A stretch of 64,000 nt of DNA from Phellopilus nigrolimitatus. Taxonomy: Eukaryota; Basidiomycota; Agaricomycetes; Hymenochaetales; Hymenochaetaceae. A model generated the notes under the pieces. The model was not told the origin of the DNA. It searched no databases and saw only the letters and a program-made list of their open reading frames with translations. The stretch is taken from NCBI GenBank assembly GCA_021029095.1, contig JAJOHG010000050.1, forward strand, positions 1 through 64,000. The letters run 5' to 3'. A program made the position numbers and the translations under genes. This document shows, piece after piece, positions 9,861 to 61,044 of this stretch. Position 1 is the stretch's first letter. Each line of letters begins with the position of its first letter.

Positions 9861-9925
9861 GACACCTTACCTTGAACGCTAACCATATCGGGCACCTTAC
9901 AAGTCACCTTGAAGTGAAGTATGTA

Positions 9926-11123
9926 CAGTCGAACTTCTGCTAATGCATACTCCTCATGCTGCATAACCTCCCAAAATGCATAGACTTCAGCTTCCACCGA
10001 GTCGGTAGTTAGAAAATACCTATAAGATAATGCATAAAATTCATAATGCATAATGCATACCTATATGCAGTAATTTTAATGGGGATATGCATTATGTGAG
10101 GTGTCTCGCCTGCACGAAAATTTTAACAACCCTATTTCGCGTTCTCACACATCTTCATGACAAGGTATTTTCACCTGCGGAGGAAGAATGGACCGACCAG
10201 GAAGTTGTAGAGCAAGCTCACATCAATATGTGGAAGCTGAAGGTGGCAAGGTCAATGGAGTAGACGATGAGCTGCCCTGCGAACCGTTAGTATTGCCAGG
10301 TGCAACGTGCCAGTCCGTAATACAGTAGGACCTCTCGTTAAGCTTACCTGTGGTTAAGCTTGTCAATAAGTTTGAGATTTTGTGTCCACGGACACGGTAG
10401 AACCGAAAAAGAAGCATGTTAAGCTTAAATGTGCAATACGCTTAACGCTTAGCCATATTTTTGAAAAATTAATTGGGAATAAGCTTAACGACAGGTTGCT
10501 TACATTAGTTTTTGGAGAGTCACTGTGGTTGATTTAGTACTGCAATTCTTGTCTTTTCCTAACATGTCTAAAGAGCTTGTTAGGCACTTGCAAAACTTGG
10601 TCGATTCTTTCAGTTCTGCCCCGGAGATAATTTTGCACAAAATCAGAAATGAGCTTCGCAGAGATATCAATGGATCTCTTGAGCAGACTGACATTAGGGA
10701 GTTTTTCTCGCAGTAAGTAGGAAAAATTTGCTATTTTTATGTAATTATGTAAGGCCGCGGATAAGCTTAACTTGCCGTTAAGCTTAGGCTCAGGGTCAAA
10801 CTTAACAAGAGGTCCTACTGTAGAGCTGGAGCGGCTCTGTGTGTGTTGCTCTGAGCCGATGTTTCAGCAGGCTTGCGGCCATCTTTGCAAGCTTGGGTTG
10901 CAACTACGGACTGAGCGGATAGGAGTAAGCACAAAACACAAATGAAAGACAAGTTCTATGTGGTAGAAAAACTGTTATCCAGCTGCTTCAATTTCCCTAT
11001 TATATGTCACCTATAGGCAAGTGTTTAAACGTATCAATTTGTGCATTTATCGTTGTGCATAACCTCTCGTAATGCATACAAATTCCTTTCACGGAGATCT
11101 ATGCATTAGCAGAAGTTTGACTG
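9926..11123. mobile_element. Pogo-like non-autonomous TIR element, copy 1 (contains a nested element)
   Basis: The left end CAGTCGAACTTCTGCTAATG and the right end (complement of CAGTCAAACTTCTGCTAATG) are terminal inverted repeats flanked by TA on both sides, the usual Tc1/mariner/pogo target duplication. Length is 1198 bases. Subterminal DNA is rich in ATGCAT. It carries no transposase. A second TIR element lies inside at 10323-10820. A near-identical inverted copy is at 43228-44428. I assign it to the pogo group from TIR start and TA target only. Confidence 0.75.
10323..10820. mobile_element. Nested pogo-like TIR element (498 bases), copy 1
   Basis: Ends CAGTAGGACCTCTCGTTAAG and its near complement (from CAGTAGGACCTCTTGTTAAG) are flanked by TA, and the subterminal DNA repeats TTAAGCTTA. 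It holds a 63-codon open frame at 10525-10716 (MVDLVLQFLSFPNMSKELVR and onward), kept identical in the second copy (43638-43829, minus). That frame has no motif I know; it may be a transposase remnant or chance. The element sits inside the larger one in the same position in both copies. Confidence 0.75.
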
Positions 11124-11267
11124 TACTGTAGTCACGCTGCCTATCTCGCGTTCAGGTCGGCAGTGCCGCTTAGTCATAATGTCCTTATTTGGGGATGAAA
11201 TCAAAATTTGAGGTCCTTTTTGCACCACACATAATAATGACAGTCAGCGATTTTTTTTTTCTCATCT

Positions 11268-34750: not shown

Positions 34751-35003
34751 GTACATACCATACATGCACACAATATAAAAATGAATATACTGGTGCTATT
34801 CTGTCCTTGAAAACCTGTAAACTACCTTTGGGTATTGAAAAGTCACAAATTCTCGACCCGCGACAATCCGTTTCCCACGGATCTGCAGTCCGGTACCACG
34901 GTTTCGAGGACTCATGGTGAGCCCTATTGGGGCATAAAAGAGCTTAGTTACACAAGCTTCGCTCCCCCCCTAATATGTGGGCACCCCACATATAAATTCA
35001 TGT

Positions 35004-35140
35004 TTATATATGGTTTTTTACCGGGGGGTCCAGTTAGGGCGAGGCCTCTGGGGCACAGTTAGCTAAAAGGGAAATATTCCCAGGGAAGTATATTGTCTGT
35101 TACAGTGACGAAAAGCGGCTTTTTGTAACACATATTTGAC
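35004..35140 (+). repeat. Direct repeat, right copy
   Basis: Same sequence and orientation as 33598-33735; similarity ends abruptly at CACATAT on both sides of the enclosed fragments. Confidence 0.85.
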
Positions 35141-35500
35141 AAATATACTATTATATGTGTTTATGTAATTCTTTTAGTTACTTTGTAACAAGTCAGGTCA
35201 CGCTATGGTGACACATATGAATGCTAGACCAAGGACACGTTGAAATAATCATAGGTTGTGAGAAAAAACAGACATAGCCTCCTCAAGTGTTTCAAAGCGC
35301 TCCAGCGCATTGTGCTCTCGCCATGTGCTGCTCTGAAGCAATCCACATTGTCGTAAGCCTCGTTGTCAATTGAGCTGTGCGACTAGCACTCAGAACGCGT
35401 CGGTTGGAGGAGCATACCGCACTGCCAATGAATGGTGATCCACGCGCGATGATCTGCTTATCATCGTGGAGCACATGAAGCACACCTCACTTGACTATAA

Positions 35501-35597
35501 GCGCGATTTATGCAAGCGCGATTTCTCTAGGCGCGATTTTTCTGCAAGCGCGATTTTTACAAGGGCGATTTCTACAAGGGCGATTTCTAGCGCGAAT
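35501..35597. repeat. Tandem repeat of 15-17 bases, about seven units
   Basis: Units share GCGCGATTT followed by a short variable spacer (TCTGCAA, TACAA, CTCTAG). The last two start GGGCGATTT. Confidence 0.85.
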
Positions 35598-35800
35598 AAT
35601 GTTAATTAGTCAGCTTCATCGATTCCGATGAGTGCCATCAGCAAGCTATGTCGGTCTCAAGGTGATGATGCCCAGTTTAGAGCGATCAATTTATCCATGA
35701 GTCGGCCAAAGCTTGGGACAAGAACATGCAGAAGCAATCACTGTGAAGTCAGGTTGTGTGAGAGTAGATACCGAGTACTGACATAAATGCCGTGCTCTCC

Positions 35801-36119
35801 TTAGTCTGAAGAAAGGACCATCCGGTATGCAAGCGCGGTCTCATCATTAGGGACATATCCATTATCATAAAGCCAGGTTCCGCGTTGCTTGATGTCCTCA
35901 CTGATCTTTCGGAAGGCCATTTGAGAACCCTTCGCCCTCCTCACGGCACGGCGGACCTTACATGTGTCGATCATCGCCCATTTAGGGTGGTGTCCGCATT
36001 TAGTAAAGAGTTCCATTTTGGGTAAGGATTGCTACTTTGGGTAAGGAGTTCCTCATTGGGAAAACCGTACAAAAAACGAAAACGAAAACACACACTGACA
36101 AGCTTTTCCGGATGCCCTG
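35801..36119 (-). mobile_element. Fragment of a Tc1/IS630-like element with transposase N-terminus
   Basis: The right end (36119, TA flank) and about 130 bases inside match the TIR of the element at 60572-61044. The minus-strand frame (36016-35801) has KISEDIKQRGTWLYDNGYVP, similar to the first helix-turn-helix of basidiomycete Tc1/IS630-like transposases. No matching left end is seen, so this copy is truncated. Confidence 0.6.
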
Positions 36120-36129
36120 TAACCCTATC

Positions 36130-36800
36130 TAAGAGCGCTCCTTATTTAGGTCTATGGAGAACTCCAGCAATGATTAGCGATCCGTAAGCTCCAGGAAACA
36201 TCTTTACCGATCTACCTTCCGTGACTGAAATAGCTTGTTTCAGTGGAGTCAACGAAAGGACAAGTCGGCGAGGTAACACCTACAGTCCATCGTTGGCATA
36301 TCTGTACCTAACCGCCTGATCGTAGGATTCTACTAATCAGCTTCACGAGCAAATCGATCAGCGTGAGTTTAATATACATTTTTGTGCCGTCTGACCTTTC
36401 GATGAAAATTAAGTACGATAACAACTTTTCGAAACTGAGAAGACCCGCGACGTCTGTACGTACCCATCTTGCCGAATCATAAAACAGCTTCCATTGAATA
36501 TTGTATTCCGTGTTTTAGCTTTACTGGATGCCGAACAGCTCCGCACCGTGCGCATCTTTTTCTTCGTTCTGATGCCTTGACGTCCTGACGCGCTAACGGA
36601 CCGAAAAATTACGATTTTAGGTGCTGCACGAGGTGGAGGAAAATCGCGGCGCTTTTTCGTCTTGATTCTTTTCTTTTTCTGGAATTAAGATTGTCACTAT
36701 TATTATTTAGCGGTTACGGATACGCGAGAGGTGACCCAGGTTCGCTCATTCCATTCATTTAATATAAGGATAAGCTATCATGGAGTTATCATGGATTCAC
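36130..36800. other. Spacer upstream of the mini-exon gene
   Basis: No coding block is recognised. It should hold the start and promoter of the mini-exon gene, whose first exon I cannot fix; a possible ATG is at 36791 but in another frame. Confidence 0.4.
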
Positions 36801-36813
36801 ACATTGTCGCTAG

Positions 36814-39720
36814 GCGATCTCAAATGTGGAAGCTGGACGTTCAGAGGCCGAGAAAGCGCGCGATAATGGTGAGTGTGCATACCGCCTTATGAAGAGAGCG
36901 AAATGAAATCTCAGCGAAATTATCACAAATTTTCCGACTAGCCCTACTAGACAACGAGCAACTTAAGGCTGTAAGTTACTCTTTTTTTGGACAGTGCATC
37001 TGGATACTAATCGAATTTTTTTCTCTAGATTCTGAAAGAGAACGAGGAGAAGCAAACGGCTTGTCCGTTCCTTTCTCGATCCCAGATCAATAGTGCGTGC
37101 GATCCTGATGTAATCTTTTTTAGTGGTCACGGACGCGCAGAAGTCGAAACAGGTTAGTCCATCATTTCTCTGGAAACAAGGGAGTTGCCTACTTGCTTAA
37201 TATGTTCTTTTCAGGCCGCTGAGTCCCAGCTTGCACTTGGTTAATTCCCGCTCTGCTTTATCTGACAACAAAATGACGTTGACGATTTTAATATTAGCCC
37301 AGCGCAACTGCGACCAATTAGAAGCTGTACGTATCCTTGAAAACCTCTCACCTGTCGTAATCTTCCACTTACTGTTTGCGTGTGTAGGGTTTGAAGGGCG
37401 CGAAAAGTGAAGTTCAGGAATGTACGTATGCAATCACGCGATTGAGTAGTTCTTCGTGGCTTATATTTGGCAGTGACGGTATCGTTAATCCGCGAGCGAC
37501 AGGTCCGTCGAAGCATTCGGAATCGTTCGCGCAGCACACTCATCAATGTTGTATTCGAAACAGATTTCTGAAGAGGCCACTTCCCGTCAGTCCAGCTGTA
37601 AGTTCCCTTCTGAAGCTTGGCTTCGGATACCAGCAACTAAACGGGGTTTTCCAGTGGCAAATGAGTTGAACTCACTCAAAAATGTCTTTTCGGACCTTTA
37701 ATGTCCATCTGTCGTCTCTGATTCCTTATCTAGACCCACGTCGAGGAGCTGGATGCGAAGGATCGCACTCTCTCAGAAGGTCGGTATACCTGTGCATTCG
37801 CTGTTACTTTACTTACCGCCTTCATTATTTACTTAGCTGCCATGCGAACCGAAGAGTTGCGAGTTGTACGAGCTAATTTCTTTTAATACAACGAGCCCGG
37901 GGATAAATACATACTTTTCTAGTGCCTAGACGATACGAACCGGAAGGTGGAGGAAGCTTGTCGGAATCTCGCTGCAGCAAACGCGAAAATTGGATGACGT
38001 ATCTGCTCAGCTCGTAGAACGTGAGTGGCTTCTGCCTCGAGAAGACTGCAGTTACTAATTCTTCGTGTTATTTATTTACAGGCAACCAGGTACTATCCTT
38101 CTATGCTCAATACGAAAATGAACTACACTGACAAGTGGCGCTCAAGGAACGGGCTGAAGTAAAAACGCATAGAGATGAGTGTGAGTCTCCGTAAGACATC
38201 ACCCTTTGCTTCATGACTGATTATAGTTGAGTAGTTCAGGCTGAAGTGAATCAGTTAAGAACTACTTTGCAAGAACGCGCTATGGGTCAAAGCGAAGGTG
38301 CAGAGTCCTAGGCCACAACCACGAACATCAACTAACGGAGGGAATAACGGCGGTACAACTGGAACAGACCAGAATGCTCCTCAGAGAAACCGAAAAGGGA
38401 CATGCCAAAGGTGAGTTGTCGCTCCATACCCGATGACTTACGGGACTTTAAGATTGTTTTAGCGGATAGCCAGATAAGGCTTATGAAGGACACTTTGGAA
38501 GAAGCGCAAAAGGAGCGCGCAGAAGGTATGTCCGCTAGCTTTCCCATAGACCTGAAGAGGGATTTTGAACGCGTGCGATAGTTGATGTCCAGCTGAAGCA
38601 AACGGACGCTGCTCTCCAGGATGCCAGCAAAGGTCGAACTGAAGGTAAGGTCCGAACTTACCTCTCAAACAAGCAGCTTATCGCGCCAAATAGCGAAGGC
38701 ACAGCTGCAGCAAATGAAGGTTGCTGTACAAGAAGCAAAGGAAAGGCAAGCCGAAGGTAAAGAGAGAGCTTTTCATTTTTATACAGATTGGCGATTGACA
38801 AGTTCGCAGCGGAAGTCCAACTCAAACATTTGGAGAGTGCCGTGCAGGATGCAAACAGAGACCGAGAGCAAGGTGAGTTCTTCGCGGCATCTCTTATTAA
38901 TATTATAGAAAAATGATCGACTGCAACAGCAAATTACCAAGTAGGGCTGTTGAATAAGGCTTTGCAGGACAGTAATAAGCGACTACTCGAAGGTTCGTAA
39001 ACGATGATTATGTTAATGCCGCATCTCTAACAGCCGTGGCAGTTGAGGGCGATTTGAAGGAGTCGAAGATTGCTCAGCTAAACACTGTAAATGAGCATGT
39101 TCAACGTACGTTCTCCGTATGTGAATGACGATAAGTCCGCTCCTAACAAATTGAATAGGAAACTCTGAACTGCAGGAAACTTTTAAAGAAGCAGAGATGC
39201 AACATACTGAGGGTAAGCTGCGTTATTATTCTCAGCAAGCGATTCGATAAGGCACGTGTAATAGCAGAATCGCGATAAGCGAAAATGAAACCGTCTATGC
39301 AGGATGCCAGTAAGGACCAGGCTGAGGGTTTGTTTCGTTTTTTGACTTATGAATGATCAGTCTAATACTGTGTTATAGTCCGAGCTCAACTAGATCAGCT
39401 TGCGCAAATGAAAGAGGCTCTAATACAAGCAAAAAAAGGATGCACTGAAAGTGGGTTCTTCGAAATTTATATTAATCGTATAAGAACTCATTGGTATGTG
39501 GCGAAGCCCTTCGTGAGGCTGAGCGCGTCAGGCTACTGTTCGCAGAATTAGATTGCAATCACTCTGAAGGTAAAATATATTTGCTGAAGGCATCTATTCA
39601 TTACTTATCTATTTCCCCCTCAGCTGAGATGTTGAATGAAGACTTGGAGAAGGTACATTATACACGTCGTAACGTTCAAGACCAGAACTCTAAGCCTTAA
39701 TTCTACAGAAGATATCCGAA
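36814..39720 (+). CDS. Coiled-coil protein built from tandem mini-exons (possibly decaying)
   Basis: More than 20 tiny exons follow each other with 45-110 base introns. First half: exons of 55, 64, 25, 34, 34 and 46 bases alternate with exons of exactly 29 bases at 36942, 37124, 37298, 37474, 37655 and 37837 (for example ALLDNEQLKA, AQRNCDQLEA, LANELNSLKN). Second half: 63-base exons at 38235, 38463, 38582, 38694, 38810, 38930, 39043, 39265 and 39507, with variants of 54 (39159) and 72 bases (39379). All start in phase 1 and end in phase 1, most ending GAA-G. They encode units such as DSQIRLMKDTLEEAQKERAE and DVQLKQTDAALQDASKGRTE: 21 residues, three heptads, very rich in Glu, Lys, Gln and Leu. 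The product would be a long coiled coil; no family is recognised. Damage includes a one-base shift near 38000, an AA for AG acceptor at 38346-38347 and an in-frame TAA in the 39265 exon. True start and end are not fixed. Confidence 0.6.
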
Positions 39721-40039
39721 CTGCAGCATGAGGTGCAAAACTGTAGGAGCCCTCATTGAAGATGTTCTGATGAGACTTCGTCGCTCATGATTATATTAGT
39801 GAACGTTCAGCTAGCCGAGATGAGGGAGGTAAGATGACAATCTTGATTTCCATTCAAACTTGTCCGCCTAATTATTCAACGTCATAAAGCATCTGGGCGT
39901 CTCCGAGCGACAGAACGAAAGGCGTAAGCGAAGATCGCCCATTCTCACTCATGCCTTTCATCTTCTCTACGTTTTACAAGTTATAAACATAACAAACAAG
40001 GACAGAAAGGTACGTAAACAAATCATTTGTTTGTGTCAC

Positions 40040-40330
40040 ATCAGGAAATACCTACCCTGTAAAATCGCTTCAAATCGCTTCAAATCGCGTAAAATCCGTA
40101 AAATCCTTTCGAAATTTTAAGGATTTTACGATTTTACGATTTTACCTTTTGACGACCCCCCCCCCCCCCCCCCTGCCGATTTCACGGATTCTATGAATTT
40201 GAACTGATTTGATACGATTTGACAAGGATTTGATAGGATTTGAAGCAAAAGGACTGTTTTCAGTCGCGTTTGCACGCTTTTGATGCGGTTTGCGTGCTTT
40301 TTACAGTTTTTCACGTGCTTTTTACAGGGT
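40040..40330. repeat. GATTTGA/GATTTTAC-type simple repeat with an 18-C run
   Basis: Starts CATCAGGAAATACCTACCCT, then AAATCGCTTC and GATTTTAC units, a run of 18 C (about 40156-40173) and GATTTGA units on the far side. The same start block and repeats occur (other strand) at 44434-44600 and at 60420-60570. Confidence 0.75.
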
Positions 40331-40489
40331 TTTACAGGAATTTTAGCTCGCATCACACCGGCATTACAGTGAAGCATATAATATTTGAGGACCATTAAAA
40401 GAAACATAAAGTATACGAAGAGTAGGTACCTAAAAGCCAATAAGACTGTAATAAAGGGTCAATCGTGCAGTGAAGGAATGTCGCGAGTC

Positions 40490-42960
40490 ATATATACAGC
40501 TCGTCCAGAGCAAGTCTGGCAAAGTCACTCTTGATGTCTAGCAAGACGCCGCGAAGCACAACAATTGCCTCCGTACCATCTGTTCACTCATCAACAACGG
40601 GGTCCGTACTGCACCTGAATGAGAAGGTGAGTGGTGTCTGCGTTTGACTGTCGCGCATGCGGGGCCGCGAGTATTCACCGAGATAGGCGCGAGGACAGGC
40701 GCGAGGGTGCACACTCGGGGTGAACCCGAGCGGCGAACAGCGCTGCGTCGACGTCGCCGTTCATGCGGCACGTCCGAAGCTGTGTAGTCCTCCCAGTCGA
40801 GTGATTCAGCGTAGTTGTAGATCATGTTCTCCGGATCATCGGCGGGGCTTCAGACGCGCTCTAGTACTGGTCCCGCTGCATTGAGAAGTATATATTCGCA
40901 ATATCCGCATGCCCGCGGTCGATCGCGTCAAACGACGACGCAGGTTGCTGCTGCTGTTGCTGCTGTTGCGCACAAGATCTTCCGTAGCGAGCACCTCCAG
41001 GTGCGAGATTCCCTGCATACGCGCTTGCGGTGGGCTTGAGAGGCTTGCAGAGTTCGTCGCACCGTATAATGATTGCGACGCCTAATCCCCACGAGCAGCG
41101 GACCGAACGTTCGACAGGACAACCTCCCATCTTTCCGATGGATCATCTACGACGACGTTGGCCGTAGGGTGGTATGACTGGAACAGTGACGATGGTTGAG
41201 CAGGATACCGGTGTGCCGTACGGGGTTGATTCCAGGTAGCCAACCCTGCAGCAGCAAGTTCGGCCTGCTGTTGCACATATTCCAACTGCCGGTATGGTTG
41301 AGACGCAGCCGCCTTGCCCGCCTGACGTCTCTCCCACTCTTGCATGGTATCGTCCCGGTTGAGCACTGGCGTAAGAGCGTTCCGCCCGGAGATGACATCG
41401 TGGTTCATGTGCTGAAGACGAGCCAGTGCGGAGGGATGGCGTACATATTGTTCTTGTGTTTGCACGAGCTCAAGAGTTTGGGTAGTATGTACTCGAAGGC
41501 AAATTCGGCTGAGCGTTCAGATCTTTAAAGGTATTTTCCGATTTTTGCGACTCACTTCCAGGATTTTGATGGCCCATTGACGCATGATTACGAATGCTGC
41601 ATCTGCTGGGACGGTAGGTTGTAATGCTGCGCATCGTGCCGATGCGACTGTGACGCGGCCTGCGCCTGCTGTTGAGGCTGCTGCGGTGTGACATACGGGT
41701 TGCGATACGCGTTCGACGCGGCCTGCGACGCGGCTTGCCGCGAGCAGTGTAGGCCTGATGCTGCGCGGGATGCTGGTCGTACGACGCAGCGTCCTGATAC
41801 GCACACTGTCCTTTTGGCTGTTGCGGAACCAAACCCCTGTACGGCCACTTCGGGTCATTCGGTGGGGTAATAGACTGCGTAGCAGCGGCAGCAGCAGCGG
41901 CTGCTGCTGTCGCGGCGCTGTTTAAGTGACTCGGTGGCTGAAGACGAATTTAGCTCCGAAGCAAAATATAAAACAATAGGAGGAAGATAACATACTACAA
42001 AAGGCTTCATGTACTTCTCGCCTGTGATGAAAGGATGCATACGAGCTTGCTGTGGCGTCCAACGCTGAATAGGATCGAAATTCAGCAAGCCCTGGCAGAA
42101 GTCGATGAACGCCGCACGGTTATTAAGTTTTACTCCAGAAGGTACGAAGTCAGGCGACCACCGTCATCGTCATACGGCGATAAGCAAAGACAGACCTTTC
42201 TCCATTTCAGGACCAGGCAACAAAGTATCCGTCGGGTGATAATGGGTATAATTGGAAGACTTCTTTGGCCCGCAAACGGTGACCCCAGAGGCGAAGTACC
42301 CTTCGAGGACGCCTGCTGCTGGGCAACAGGCGGCTGATATGGTGGTGCGCTCGGCATTTCAGTCGGACTTGAGTTCTGATACACGGTTGAAGTGGGAAAG
42401 TCTGCAGTTGCAGCAGTCTGCGCTGACATCTGCTGAAGCTGAGAGTAAGGGTCGAGCAAAGGCGTAGTACCCAGTCCTGTCTGTCGTCGCGGACTCCTAG
42501 TTGCCGAAAAGCTCTCATCAAGCTTCTGCGCTGCAGTTGTGTGCCATCAAACATAGTCAGGAGTCCCAGAAAGATGATTGTCTTGATATGGGTCAGAGCA
42601 ATCGACAGGCTGGCCACGTTCGAATTGGCCCAATGGCCGGTCAGCTATGGCTGTTGAGGAGACGCATATGAGACACTGGGTGAGTAGAACGACTGAGAGA
42701 TATGCAAGCGGCCGATGTTACTGGACCCGGTCGGTTGTGTTCCCGTGCGCACTGTCGTTTCATAAACGACGCACTCCAAGTCGTCCGTTATACGATGTTG
42801 ATTTCGCCGCGATGAAAATCCACCACTGCCTAGCATCAACGACAGATCCACCCAGATACGCACAATGCGAAAGGTATGCCCGACCAGTCGATAAGTTCCG
42901 ATCGTGGACAAGAGTGAGGTCAATACGGAACAAGGGAATAACTTTTCGAGTGATGACGCG
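40490..42960 (-). pseudogene. YAK1: YAK1 (DYRK-family) protein kinase with the kinase core deleted
   Basis: YAK1 is a growth-inhibiting Ser/Thr kinase. Minus strand: N-terminal Gln/Pro/Ser-rich pieces (SQLQQMSAQTAATADFPTS, TSPLGSPFAGQRSLP at about 42240-42460) are followed directly, near 42090-42130, by the last kinase residues QGLLNFDPIQRWTPQQARMH with PFITGEKYMKPF. The catalytic part in between, normally some 300 residues with the HRD and DFG motifs, is missing. An intron-like gap follows (about 41940-42000), then the Gln- and Ala-rich C-terminal region (AYQDAASYDQHPAQHQ, EYVQQQAELAAAGLATW), in several frames, ending near 41082 or further left at about 40500. Repeats flank it on both sides. 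Confidence 0.7.
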
Positions 42961-43226
42961 GCCTTTGTCTAATTCAGGGCCGGCTTAAATGGACTTAAAG
43001 ACCTGGAGAACACTTTGAATACCTGTCCTTCGTATCTGTACACAATAATTTGGCCCTTTATAAAAGCATTATGGTGTAATGGTTATGATTTGGTTGTGCT
43101 TTGCTGCTAAGTTACATGTTCAATTCGCGTGATGTGTTTATTTTTTCAACTTAAATAAACACATCATTTGGACTTGTGCATAATTTCTGCATTGGAGAAT
43201 TTGACGGATTTGAAGAAAGTTACTGT
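42922..43226 (+). repeat. Interspersed repeat with tRNA-like promoter, copy 1
   Basis: It matches the reverse complement of about 61045-61400. At 43066-43125 it has a tRNA-like pair of boxes: ATGGTGTAATGGTTATG (A-box-like) and, about 33 bases on, ATGTTCAATTC (B-box-like, compare GGTTCRANTCC). The 3' end is AATTTGACGGATTTGAAGAA and the pogo-like element starts right behind it at 43228. It resembles a SINE, but the tRNA-like part lies in the middle and not at the 5' end. Confidence 0.6.
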
Positions 43227-43227
43227 A

Positions 43228-44428
43228 CAGTCAAACTTCTGCTAATGCGTAGATCTCCGTGAAAGGAATTTGTATGCATTACGAGAGGTTATGCACTACG
43301 ATAAATGCACAAATTGATACGTAATTTAAACACTTGCCTATAGGTGACATATAATAGGGAAATTGAAGCAGCTGGATAACAGTTTTTCTACCACATAGAA
43401 CTTGTCTTTCATTTGTGTTTTGTGCTTACTCCTATCCGCTCAGTCCGTAGTTGCAACCCAAGCTTGCAAAGATGGCCGCAAGCCTGCTGAAACATCGGCT
43501 CAGAGCAACACACACAGAGCCGCTCCAGCTCTACAGTAGGACCTCTTGTTAAGTTTGACCCTGAGCCTAAGCTTAACGGCAAGTTAAGCTTATCCGCGGC
43601 CTTACATAATTACATAAAAATAGCAAATTTTTCCTACTTACTGCGAGAAAAACTCCCTAATGTCAGTCTGCTCAAGAGATCCATTGATATCTCTGCGAAG
43701 CTCATTTCTGATTTTGTGCAAAATTATCTCCGGGGCAGAACTGAAAGAATCGACCAAGTTTTGCAAGTGCCTAACAAGCTCTTTAGACATGTTAGGAAAA
43801 GACAAGAATTGCAGTACTAAATCAACCACAGTGACTCTCCAAAAACTAATGTAAGCAACCTGTCGTTAAGCTTATTCCCAATTAATTTTTCAAAAATATG
43901 GCTAAGCGTTAAGCGTATTGCACATTTAAGCTTAACATGCTTCTTTTTCGGTTCTACCGTGTCCGTGGACACAAAATCTCAAACTTATTGACAAGCTTAA
44001 CCACAGGTAAGCTTAACGAGAGGTCCTACTGTATTACGGACTGGCACGTTGCACCTGGCAATACTAACGGTTCGCAGGGCAGCTCATCGTCTACTCCATT
44101 GACCTTGCCACCTTCAGCTTCCACATATTGATGTGAGCTTGCTCTACAACTTCCTGGTCGGTCCATTCTTCCTCCGCAGGTGAAAATACCTTGTCATGAA
44201 GATGTGTGAGAACGCGAAATAGGGTTGTTAAAATTTTCGTGCAGGCGAGACACCTCACATAATGCATATCCCCATTAAAATTACTGCATATAGGTATGCA
44301 TTATGCATTATGAATTTTATGCATTATCTTATAGGTATTTTCTAACTACCGACTCGGTGGAAGCTGAAGTCTATGCATTTTGGGAGGTTATGCAGCATGA
44401 GGAGTATGCATTAGCAGAAGTTCGACTG
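43228..44428. mobile_element. Pogo-like non-autonomous TIR element, copy 2 (inverted relative to 9926-11123)
   Basis: Ends CAGTCAAACTTCTGCTAATG and (complement of) CAGTCGAACTTCTGCTAATG, TA flanks at both ends, 1201 bases. Nearly identical to the reverse complement of 9926-11123 over its full length, and similarity ends exactly at the TA dinucleotides, so this is transposition and not segmental duplication. Confidence 0.85.
43534..44031. mobile_element. Nested pogo-like element, copy 2
   Basis: Same 498-base element as 10323-10820, at the same internal site and inverted with the host element. TIR CAGTAGGACCTCTTGTTAAG, TA flanks. The 63-codon frame is preserved (43638-43829, minus). Confidence 0.8.
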
Positions 44429-44433
44429 TACAT

Positions 44434-44600
44434 AAGAATTTGAAGGATTTGAAGAATCCAAAAACTTCGGCGCTTAAGAACCTGTAAAAAAAAAAAAGGT
44501 GAAAATTTGAAGGGATTTGAAGGGATTTGAAGGGATTTGAGCGATTTGACGCGATTTGACGCGATTTGACAGGGTAGTTTTCCTGATGCACTTGCAAATT
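44434..44600. repeat. GATTTGA-type simple repeat
   Basis: Repeats GAAGGGATTTGA and GACGCGATTTGA and ends in ACAGGGTAGTTTTCCTGATG, the complement of the start block of the 40040 and 60420 repeats. Confidence 0.75.
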
Positions 44601-44725
44601 GAAGCTCTTTAAACTATCTTTAAGCTAGAATCCAAAGTTGAGAAGTTGTCACTTGCTCACCAAAGGGTATGTAGGATATCCATATATCCATTTCTGGTCA
44701 GACCGAACTGAGACCCTCTTGTTAG

Positions 44726-45010
44726 ATGGCTGCGATATACTATTCACCAGTAGCCTCGCCTGACCGCCCTAATCCTCCGACCCGTTTGGGGAGTCTGACG
44801 TCACGGAGTACTCCATCCTCGTTTTCACCGACCGAGATGACTCTTCAAGAATCTGCAAGTTATGACCATATTGATCCACCAGGCGGAGCGCGAGAGAAGA
44901 AGCGTGCTGCAGACGACACTACGAATGCGAGTGCAAACACGAAGGCTGGGAAGGTGTCCCGCTTGAACTCGCCGCCATTGACGAAGGCGACAAGGAAGAG
45001 CCGCTCGTAA
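44726..45010 (+). CDS. Small hypothetical protein, 94 residues
   Basis: Single open frame MAAIYYSPVASPDRPNPPTR to a stop at 45008-45010. It is Ser/Thr/Pro-rich with a basic C-terminus (KAGKVSRLNSPPLTKATRKS), like a short nuclear or disordered protein. No family is recognised and no intron is needed. It could be a first exon of something larger: a GTAAGC follows the last codons. Confidence 0.35.
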   Translation: MAAIYYSPVASPDRPNPPTRLGSLTSRSTPSSFSPTEMTLQESASYDHIDPPGGAREKKRAADDTTNASANTKAGKVSRLNSPPLTKATRKSRS

Positions 45011-45229
45011 GCGCTGACTGTTTCCTTTCTCTGTTCATACTCGCCTCTATTATGAAGAGTACTTATACAAAATCGTTTTTCCTCTTATGTTGTTTCTGTA
45101 CATTCTGATTCAAGTTTTCTATCATAAGCTATATAGATAGTCCGCTCGATTGAATTGTCCTCCTATCTCCGTTTTGCCAACTGCTTGCCATGGCTGTGGA
45201 CTTGAGCTCAAATCAGCGGAGGATATAGG

Positions 45230-46395
45230 TATATTGGGCTCGGGGCAAAGGCGTGCTGGCTAGGTCTGCGCCGCGATCATAAACCAAATCTCAGATGTGC
45301 CGAAAGAAGGCGGCTTTGGAACATACCGTGTGCCCACGAGACGCCGCCCATGCAATTGGAAATGGAGAAGAACAGGGTAATGATGGGAAGGATCTCAAGA
45401 AGAGCAGCGGCGAAGTCGAAGGACCTATATTCCAACTCGCGCTCTTCCATGAAGACGTCATTTTCTTCGCCTCGAAGGACAACTTATCATTTAAATTGGG
45501 CAGTGAGATGGGAGTAAAACAGGTACTCACACGTCTATGGAAGCGACGCGCCGTGCCGATGGCCTGAAAGTATACGCGCTGACGGCCATGCCCACGAATG
45601 AGTAGAAACACTCAGCAGTAGTAGTGTGGCTTCGGAGTGCATAACATCAGATACCTTCATTCACACACAAAGCTTTCGCCCACTCACCCTCTTGTAGTAA
45701 GAAACCGCCCAAAGTACCCGCTGACTCAGCACTCCCAACGCCAGCCCTTGACGCACAGGGGGGCGGCGTACTCCTCCAGAGCCCCAAGATTCGGGCCCCT
45801 TACCGCATGAACGGGCGGTGTGCTCCCACGCGCGGTCGCACACGATGCGCATGTTCTTCAAGAGGAAGAAGCGCAGGATGACCGTAAGCTTGTTCGAGAG
45901 CAGGAGGGGCGTCGCGTCTGTCATGGTCAGAACGTCGGATGGTTCGGGACTTCAGTAATCATGGGAACAAAACTTGAGAACGAGTGGGAAGTGCCTACAT
46001 GTTGTAACAGTGTACGGAAGCTAGTAGCCGAAGACTGAGTCGTGGGCAAGGCCGGTGATGCGAAGAGAACTGTCCAGGCCGGTTGCCCAGCAAGGCCCAC
46101 CAAGAAAAAGACTGCGAGAAAAACACATTGCATAAGAAGAATCTCGAAAAACTTGAGCTGTATGTTGAATTATAGGGCAGTCTGAGGTGTAATGGAGGCA
46201 GAGGAATGGTTCATTCACAACGACGCAATAGATGACACAGACTGGACGTACCTATCCTATGCCGAGCGCCGCGGCGCGCAAGAATCCGTGCTTGCACTTC
46301 GCCAATGTCGGGACGTACAGCTTGTCGTTTGAGAGTAGTCGGTACGCGCCAACGGCGCTTCATGTTCTGTCGACATGTTTTGGAAGCTTCGCAGC
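45230..46395 (-). pseudogene. Unidentified multi-pass-membrane-like gene remnant
   Basis: Minus-strand pieces contain hydrophobic segments: LMQCVFLAVFFLVGLAGQPA with WTVLFASPALP (about 46030-46130), LLLSNKLTVILRFFLLKNMR (about 45860-45910), SFVGMAVSAYTFRPSARRVA (about 45570) and ILPIITLFFSISNCMGGVSW (about 45340-45400). GT..AG candidates lie between them. The order suggests one protein with several membrane helices, but frames are broken and I cannot name the family. Confidence 0.35.
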
Positions 46396-60571: not shown

Positions 60572-61044
60572 CAGCATATCCGGAAAACCTTGTCAGTGTG
60601 TGTTTTCATTTTCGTTTTTTGTACGGTTTTCCCAAAGAGGAATTCCTTACCCAAAGTAGCAATCCTTACCCAAAATGGAACTCCTTACTGAATGCGGCCA
60701 CTGCCATATCCGGGGATGATCGACACATGTAAGCCGTGTCGTGAGGAGGGCAAAGTACTCAGGGAGAACATCAAGCAACGCGGAATCTGGCTTTATAATA
60801 ATGGCTATGTCCCTAATGATATCTATACAATTCTTGAGTTAGCAAGTAAGATGGCACGACACAACGAGCACGCACAGTGTCGAACAACACGTCAATCATC
60901 GCCTGTTTAGGTAGGTGGCCGCATTCAGTAAGGAGTTCCATTTTGGGTAAGGATTGCTACTTTGGGTAAGGAATTCCTCTTTGGGAAAACCGTACAAAAA
61001 ACGAAAATGAAAACACACACTGACAAGGTTTTCCGGATATGCTG
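60572..61044 (+). mobile_element. Tc1/IS630-like TIR element with a transposase N-terminus, 473 bases
   Basis: Ends CAGCATATCCGGAAAACC and complement, TA on both flanks, arms of about 128 bases. Between them the plus frame 60692-60910 reads MIDTCKPCREEGKVLRENIK and QRGIWLYNNGYVPND, related to the minus frame at 36016-35801. Only the first DNA-binding helix region is kept, so the element is non-autonomous. Confidence 0.75.

Follow-up and report, generated by a model that had tools for sequence, protein, structure and literature searches.

What kind of gene is built from a run of short exons that each begin and end in the same phase and encode exactly three heptads of a predicted coiled coil? 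This question is raised by a 64,000-nt stretch of the Phellopilus nigrolimitatus genome (contig JAJOHG010000050.1, positions 1 to 64,000; hereafter, the window), in which an original prediction, made from the sequence alone, placed a tandem array of such exons at 38235..39569. We consider it probable, at about 0.85, that the array forms the core of a conserved gene of Hymenochaetaceae, which encodes a long alpha-helical coiled-coil protein in mini-exons consisting mostly of whole heptads, and that the window holds a pseudogene copy of this gene.

Exon anatomy of the array and of the complete gene

The array consists of the following features:

38235..39569, plus strand: 12 unit exons in unsplit form, 63 nt long in ten cases and 54 and 72 nt in one case each
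38235, 38348, 38463, 38582, 38694, 38810, 38930, 39043, 39159, 39265, 39379 and 39507, plus strand: starts of the array exons
39159-39212, plus strand: 54-nt array exon
39379-39450, plus strand: 72-nt array exon

An exon-by-exon check bore out all twelve predicted starts and their spacing of 106-128 nt. The introns, put at about 50 bases, measured 49-57 nt, and each of the 12 exons is in phase 1 at both ends in the family frame, as had been claimed; the 63-nt size held as well, but for ten exons rather than nine. The donor GT is present in 12 of 12 cases and the acceptor AG in 11 of 12, the exception preceding the exon at 38348, and the exon at 39265 carries an in-frame stop.

When the genome itself was searched with positions 38200-39600, five further places were found, with 82-93% identity (the window copy is denoted A):

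C625:190050: array match, copy B2
C625:132280, minus strand: array match, copy B1
C625:468002: array match, copy C
C311:16184: array match
C46:32148: array match in two pieces, copy D

The C311 sequence and copy C are 99.9% alike over 9.8 kb and are probably two haplotypes; B1 and B2 are 99.2% alike over 2.3 kb and are both damaged in exons 39 and 41. The array exon lengths are identical in B1, B2 and C, except for the final exon, which is 59 nt in B1 and B2, and copy D is without three of the 12 array exons.

Mechanical chaining of exons of the form AG, an open 63-nt phase-1 stretch and GT gave a chain of 7 for the window and one of 10 for copy C, each count including one link in which the 54-nt exon is read by chance as 63 nt, and the copy C chain reached 12 when 54 and 72 nt were also permitted. 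In 2,000 sequences simulated with a Markov model, the longest chain was 4 (63 nt only) or 5 (54, 63 or 72 nt), and among the chains listed for window stretches away from the array (both strands, steps of 360) the longest was 3. The 115-base periodicity that the original prediction offered as a check gave no clear signal at the DNA level, with weak autocorrelation at lag 115 (0.292) and lag 119 (0.297), although the highest lags (695, 683, 335 and 348) are near multiples of 115. Tandem Repeats Finder listed no array at 38235..39569. The repeat is diverged and resides in the exons.

The design is not confined to 38235..39569, as had been proposed, and continues far past both ends in another form. 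An additional intron, placed after residue 10, divides the module on either side of the array into an exon of 29 nt (phase 1 to 0) and one of 34 nt (phase 0 to 1). The anatomy of the whole gene was derived from an alignment of the genomic copies, and copy A contains the following parts of it outside the array:

36150..38180, plus strand: upstream exons, mostly 29/34-nt split units, checked against B1 and C for length and splice sites
36150-36183, 36244-36272, 36326-36362, 36414-36455 (42 nt), 36519-36547 and 36621-36654, plus strand: upstream exons
36711-36739, 36814-36868, 36942-36970, 37029-37062, 37124-37152 and 37215-37239, plus strand: upstream exons
37298-37326, 37388-37421, 37474-37502, 37564-37597 and 37655-37683, plus strand: upstream exons
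37734-37779, 37837-37865, 37923-38020, 38082-38089 and 38147-38180, plus strand: upstream exons
39624-39652, 39709-39742, 39800-39828, 39890-39923 and 39981-40009, plus strand: downstream split units (29/34/29/34/29 nt)
44625..44666, plus strand: next exon, on the far side of a 4.5-kb insertion, modelled with 42 nt (copy C, 54 nt)
44726..45010, plus strand: final reading frame, 94 codons and a stop, with a tail unlike that of copy C

The best-preserved copy, C (contig C625, 464730-471064), is modelled with 51 exons in one frame, with 1,168 codons to the stop. Fifteen exons are 29 nt long, nine 34 nt and ten 63 nt, and the others range from 8 to 515 nt; 30 of the 51 do not exceed 51 nt. The introns of 38-74 nt (median 56) have AG at 49 of 50 acceptors and GT at 49 of 50 donors; because one exon is without an AG acceptor and one donor is GC, copy C may not be spliced exactly as modelled. 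The 29- and 34-nt exons are symmetric only pairwise, as are the small exons outside the array in general, except for one of 42 nt. From one phase-1 border to the next, 22 of 28 rod segments encode whole heptads (14, 21, 28 or 42 residues), and the other six encode 26, 22, 18, 25, 18 and 24 residues. Thus, as in the collagens, exon length follows the structural repeat and the modules are symmetric, here in 22 of 28 segments. In the predicted protein, a conserved N-terminal region is followed by the rod, then by a Ser-Pro-rich basic stretch (PPAKR) and finally by two C-x2-C...H-C-x3-H motifs.

Decay of the window copy and coding-type substitution between copies

The gene reading of the window holds for the family design but not for the window copy itself, which is a decayed duplicate and no working gene. 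Copy A is a partial, transposon-interrupted pseudogene, given that its 5' end is missing, stops have arisen, splice sites have been lost and a 4.5-kb insertion separates its parts. In addition to the stop at 39265, in-frame stops occur in the exons at 36150 and 36414; GT is absent after 36654, as is the AG before 38348, and the exon at 37923 has 98 nt, compared with 97 in B1 and C. The 5' exons are lacking, and the copy starts beside a dispersed repeat at 36120. At the other end, A, B1 and D have a common 3' tail that differs from that of copy C. The two sequences that delimit and interrupt copy A are:

35843..36120, no strand assigned: end of the dispersed repeat beside the copy A start, from genome matches
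40037..44588, no strand assigned: insertion bounded by inverted ends (ATCAGGAAA... / ...TTTCCTGAT) and flanked on each side by CAC

Most of the genome matches to 35000-36120 (68 of 73) fall in the last 280 bases, with many ending at 36113-36120, and the homology of the gene copies begins at 36120/36121. The repeat (35843-36120; 60578-61038), with 68 genome matches, often occurs in facing pairs. Past the other end of copy A, after its tail, positions 44930-45800 have 14 other genome matches, one of which adjoins copy D.

The CAC flanking the inserted element is a probable 3-nt target duplication, and the element matches four other places with 88-89% identity over about 3.2 kb. Its minus-strand reading frames look kinase-like, and presumably resemble a kinase of the DYRK/Yak1 type. 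A 1.2-kb sequence nested in the element has three occurrences on the contig, all at 100% identity (43221-44434, 9920-11130; also C446:96800-98004), which marks it as a very recent insertion.

Comparison of the copies shows substitution of the coding type. Indels are fewer in exons than in introns between B1 and C (2/2090 versus 21/2580; Fisher p 4e-4) and between A and C (1/1686 versus 18/2288; Fisher p 6e-4), and the corresponding counts between A and B1 are 2/1682 and 11/2298 (p 0.05). With codons containing stops or gaps dropped and one 42-nt exon left out of the counts, dN/dS is 0.50 for B1-C (chi-square p 4e-5) and 0.47 for A-C (p 8e-4). For the pairs involving D, the ratio is 0.49-0.58 over array exons one to seven and 0.87-1.13 over the exons that follow. 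Between A and B1 no selection was seen (dN/dS 1.03, p 1.0), as expected for duplicates past selection. The overall rate of substitution in exons is not below that in introns, either for B1-C (0.098 versus 0.077) or for the D pairs (0.16-0.18 versus 0.11-0.13).

Relatives and rod length between species

Protein searches identified relatives in six other species of Hymenochaetaceae, known here solely as predicted proteins, with the same order of features as copy C; in the searches for the Coniferiporia weirii and Pyrrhoderma noxium proteins, only candidates sharing most words were scored. The C. weirii protein (P0001; 1,011 residues) is 39% identical over 97% in a search whose query lacked a 42-nt exon, and shares 526 of 980 aligned residues with the fuller model of copy C. 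The four Sanghuangporus proteins (P0003-P0006) are, like P0001, collinear with copy C, but their second Cys-His motif is cut short; P0003 is identical to copy C at 417 of 978 aligned residues. The family was looked up for one of the Sanghuangporus species. In the P. noxium protein (P0007, named kinesin K39), the same feature order was recognized by reading. Within P. nigrolimitatus, 16 exon translations were compared with the database protein derived from copy D (P0002), which contains 14 of them whole. In its database model, copy D is fused to a start that resembles a helicase (DEAD, 15.8 bits against a cut-off of 26) and may be of Dicer-like origin.

Despite the name of P0007, a kinesin identity is not supported, with no kinesin domain detected by Pfam in P0007, P0003, P0001 or the copy C reading; nor is an intermediate filament protein supported, as P0001 scored 18.9 bits with Pfam Filament against a cut-off of 40. 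The same four sequences had no Pfam match above the cut-offs, and no match was found among the sequences of solved structures. In an AlphaFold model of P0001, built from five sequences, helices cover residues 66-739 with short breaks, at a mean pLDDT of only 52.7.

In the alignment with copy C, P0001 is without a block of 63 residues that corresponds to three array exons:

38582-38644, 38694-38756 and 38810-38872, plus strand: exons absent from P0001

Both ends of this gap lie 0.3 residue from exon borders, although, the relatives being gene predictions, an exon-sized gap could also be an annotation omission. The claim that the symmetric exons could be added or skipped in frame is supported, and as aligned the two species differ by exactly three of these exons; the Phellopilus lineage probably acquired three modules. 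Elsewhere in the rod, P0001 is without two stretches, of 11 and 36 residues, which sum to 47, equal four exons in length and make a single gap by reading. It is also without 3 residues and without 24 (by reading, a 21-residue exon pair plus 3), and it is 7 residues longer at the 8-nt exon of copy C, 0.7 residue from an exon border. All ends lie within 1 residue of an exon border in only 2 of the 6 P0001 rod gaps of at least 3 residues and in 4 of the 19 P0003 gaps of at least 5 residues. Reading of the alignments puts the C. weirii counterparts of the 54- and 72-nt exons at 18 and 24 residues. At the three exons absent from P0001, the Sanghuangporus proteins are gapped in the multiple alignment but ungapped in the pairwise alignment, which is a reserve on the proposed gain.

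Unit relatedness, proposed module exchange and rival explanations

The claim that the 21-residue unit represents three heptads agrees with the ten 63-nt units of copy C, in which 41 of 60 core positions (1, 5, 8, 12, 15 and 19) are hydrophobic, compared with 35 of 150 other positions. Position 19 is hydrophobic in one of the ten units, and positions 10, 11 and 20 are often hydrophobic in the array. The hydrophobic period of 3.5 residues was reached in none of 2,000 shuffles. Of 21 rotations of the split units against the array profile, the one in register gives the best fit (0.40; next best, 0.01).

A likeness of this kind might have arisen without any exon duplication, through convergence under heptad constraint together with a bias in intron positions. 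In favor of such convergence, the ten 63-nt exons of copy C share only 25-62% nucleotide identity, the array introns are unlike one another and the split units show hardly any mutual likeness (0.04). However, the BLOSUM similarity of seven array units is 1.36-1.70 at lags 21, 42, 63 and 84, whereas the remaining heptad lags examined give -0.03 to 0.21, and the 21-residue excess was reached by none of 5,000 shuffles of heptad order, so that heptads alone are rejected as the source and convergence is very improbable. Relatedness by duplication is thus evident within the array but weak among the split units on its flanks, and the 21-residue signal is also weak along the entire rod (0.28 at lag 21 and -0.01 at lag 42). 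The exons at 38582, 38694 and 38810 share 59-62% nucleotide identity in copy C. That the duplicating unit is exon plus intron, as originally supposed, cannot be shown: the array exons of copy C are alike (mean z 2.79, with a fraction of 0.44 of pairs above 3) and the introns are not (mean z 0.50, 0.02 of 66 pairs). Given such introns, the duplications look old.

The basic module of 63 nt, encoding 21 residues or three heptads, exists either as a single exon or as a 29+34-nt pair. In the mechanism that we propose, whole three-heptad modules would be added when phase-1 introns take part in unequal exchange or bound a tandem duplication and, because the module borders are phase-1 introns, modules could be duplicated or lost without a frame shift. 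The heptad register would also be kept if the module is three heptads long. The rod, presumably dimeric, would accordingly change its length in three-heptad steps through whole-exon duplication. The Ser-Pro-rich basic stretch and the two Cys-His motifs, together with the rod and the conserved N-terminus, suggest a nuclear rod-like scaffold, which is a guess from composition. Tentatively, and with the odds somewhat against it, the heptad-phased symmetric exons might serve as interchangeable modules that set the length of a nuclear coiled-coil rod across species, and perhaps among isoforms, by gain, loss or skipping of whole exons.

Exon-matched structural repeats are known for collagens. Fibrillar collagen genes derive from an ancestral 54-bp exon and grew by duplication (PMC8871609), and a coiled-coil rod gene would be the counterpart of these 54-bp exons. 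By analogy of design, both encode rod proteins in short exons that match the structural repeat; however, collagen forms a triple helix in which every third residue is glycine and the unit has 18 residues, whereas an alpha-helical coiled coil with a 21-residue unit is predicted here. Synaptonemal complex proteins are described as coiled coils that diverge fast and conserve their length (PMC8598163); the predicted coiled coil studied here likewise diverges fast, but varies in length. No fungal gene family of heptad exons and no fungal coiled-coil counterpart were found in the open-access literature, with few subscription journals covered. Two questions become testable with this gene, namely, whether coiled-coil rods can, by virtue of exon symmetry, grow or shrink with the register kept, and how faithfully fungi splice 50 short introns between exons as small as 8-34 nt.

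The module exchange proposed above has to be weighed against two other explanations. The gene could be a micro-exon gene for isoform diversity, in which modules are skipped by alternative splicing to yield rods of varied length. The schistosome micro-exon genes (MEGs), whose coding region consists mostly of very small symmetric exons (PMC4350168), provide the design, and the symmetry of all the array exons, the high share of exons of at most 51 nt in copy C and the position of its acceptor without AG, in a symmetric and hence skippable pair, fit this explanation. We nevertheless regard it as unlikely. Heptads are followed in 22 of 28 segments, which an isoform generator would not need, and the small exons outside the array are, with the 42-nt exception, symmetric only as pairs. 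MEG products are described as occurring in secretions, and heptad phasing and, for many, merely pairwise symmetry set the present exons apart from those of MEGs.

Less probable still is that the array is spread by a mobile or repeat-associated family comprising A, B1, B2 and D, which would then not be passive duplicates. Partial copies do lie on three contigs, the 3' tail common to A, B1 and D is unlike that of C, and the sequence just past this tail (44930-45800) recurs at the 14 places mentioned above. An unsystematic look, however, revealed no shared ends or target duplications; the copies end at differing points, and only five other places in the genome carry the array.
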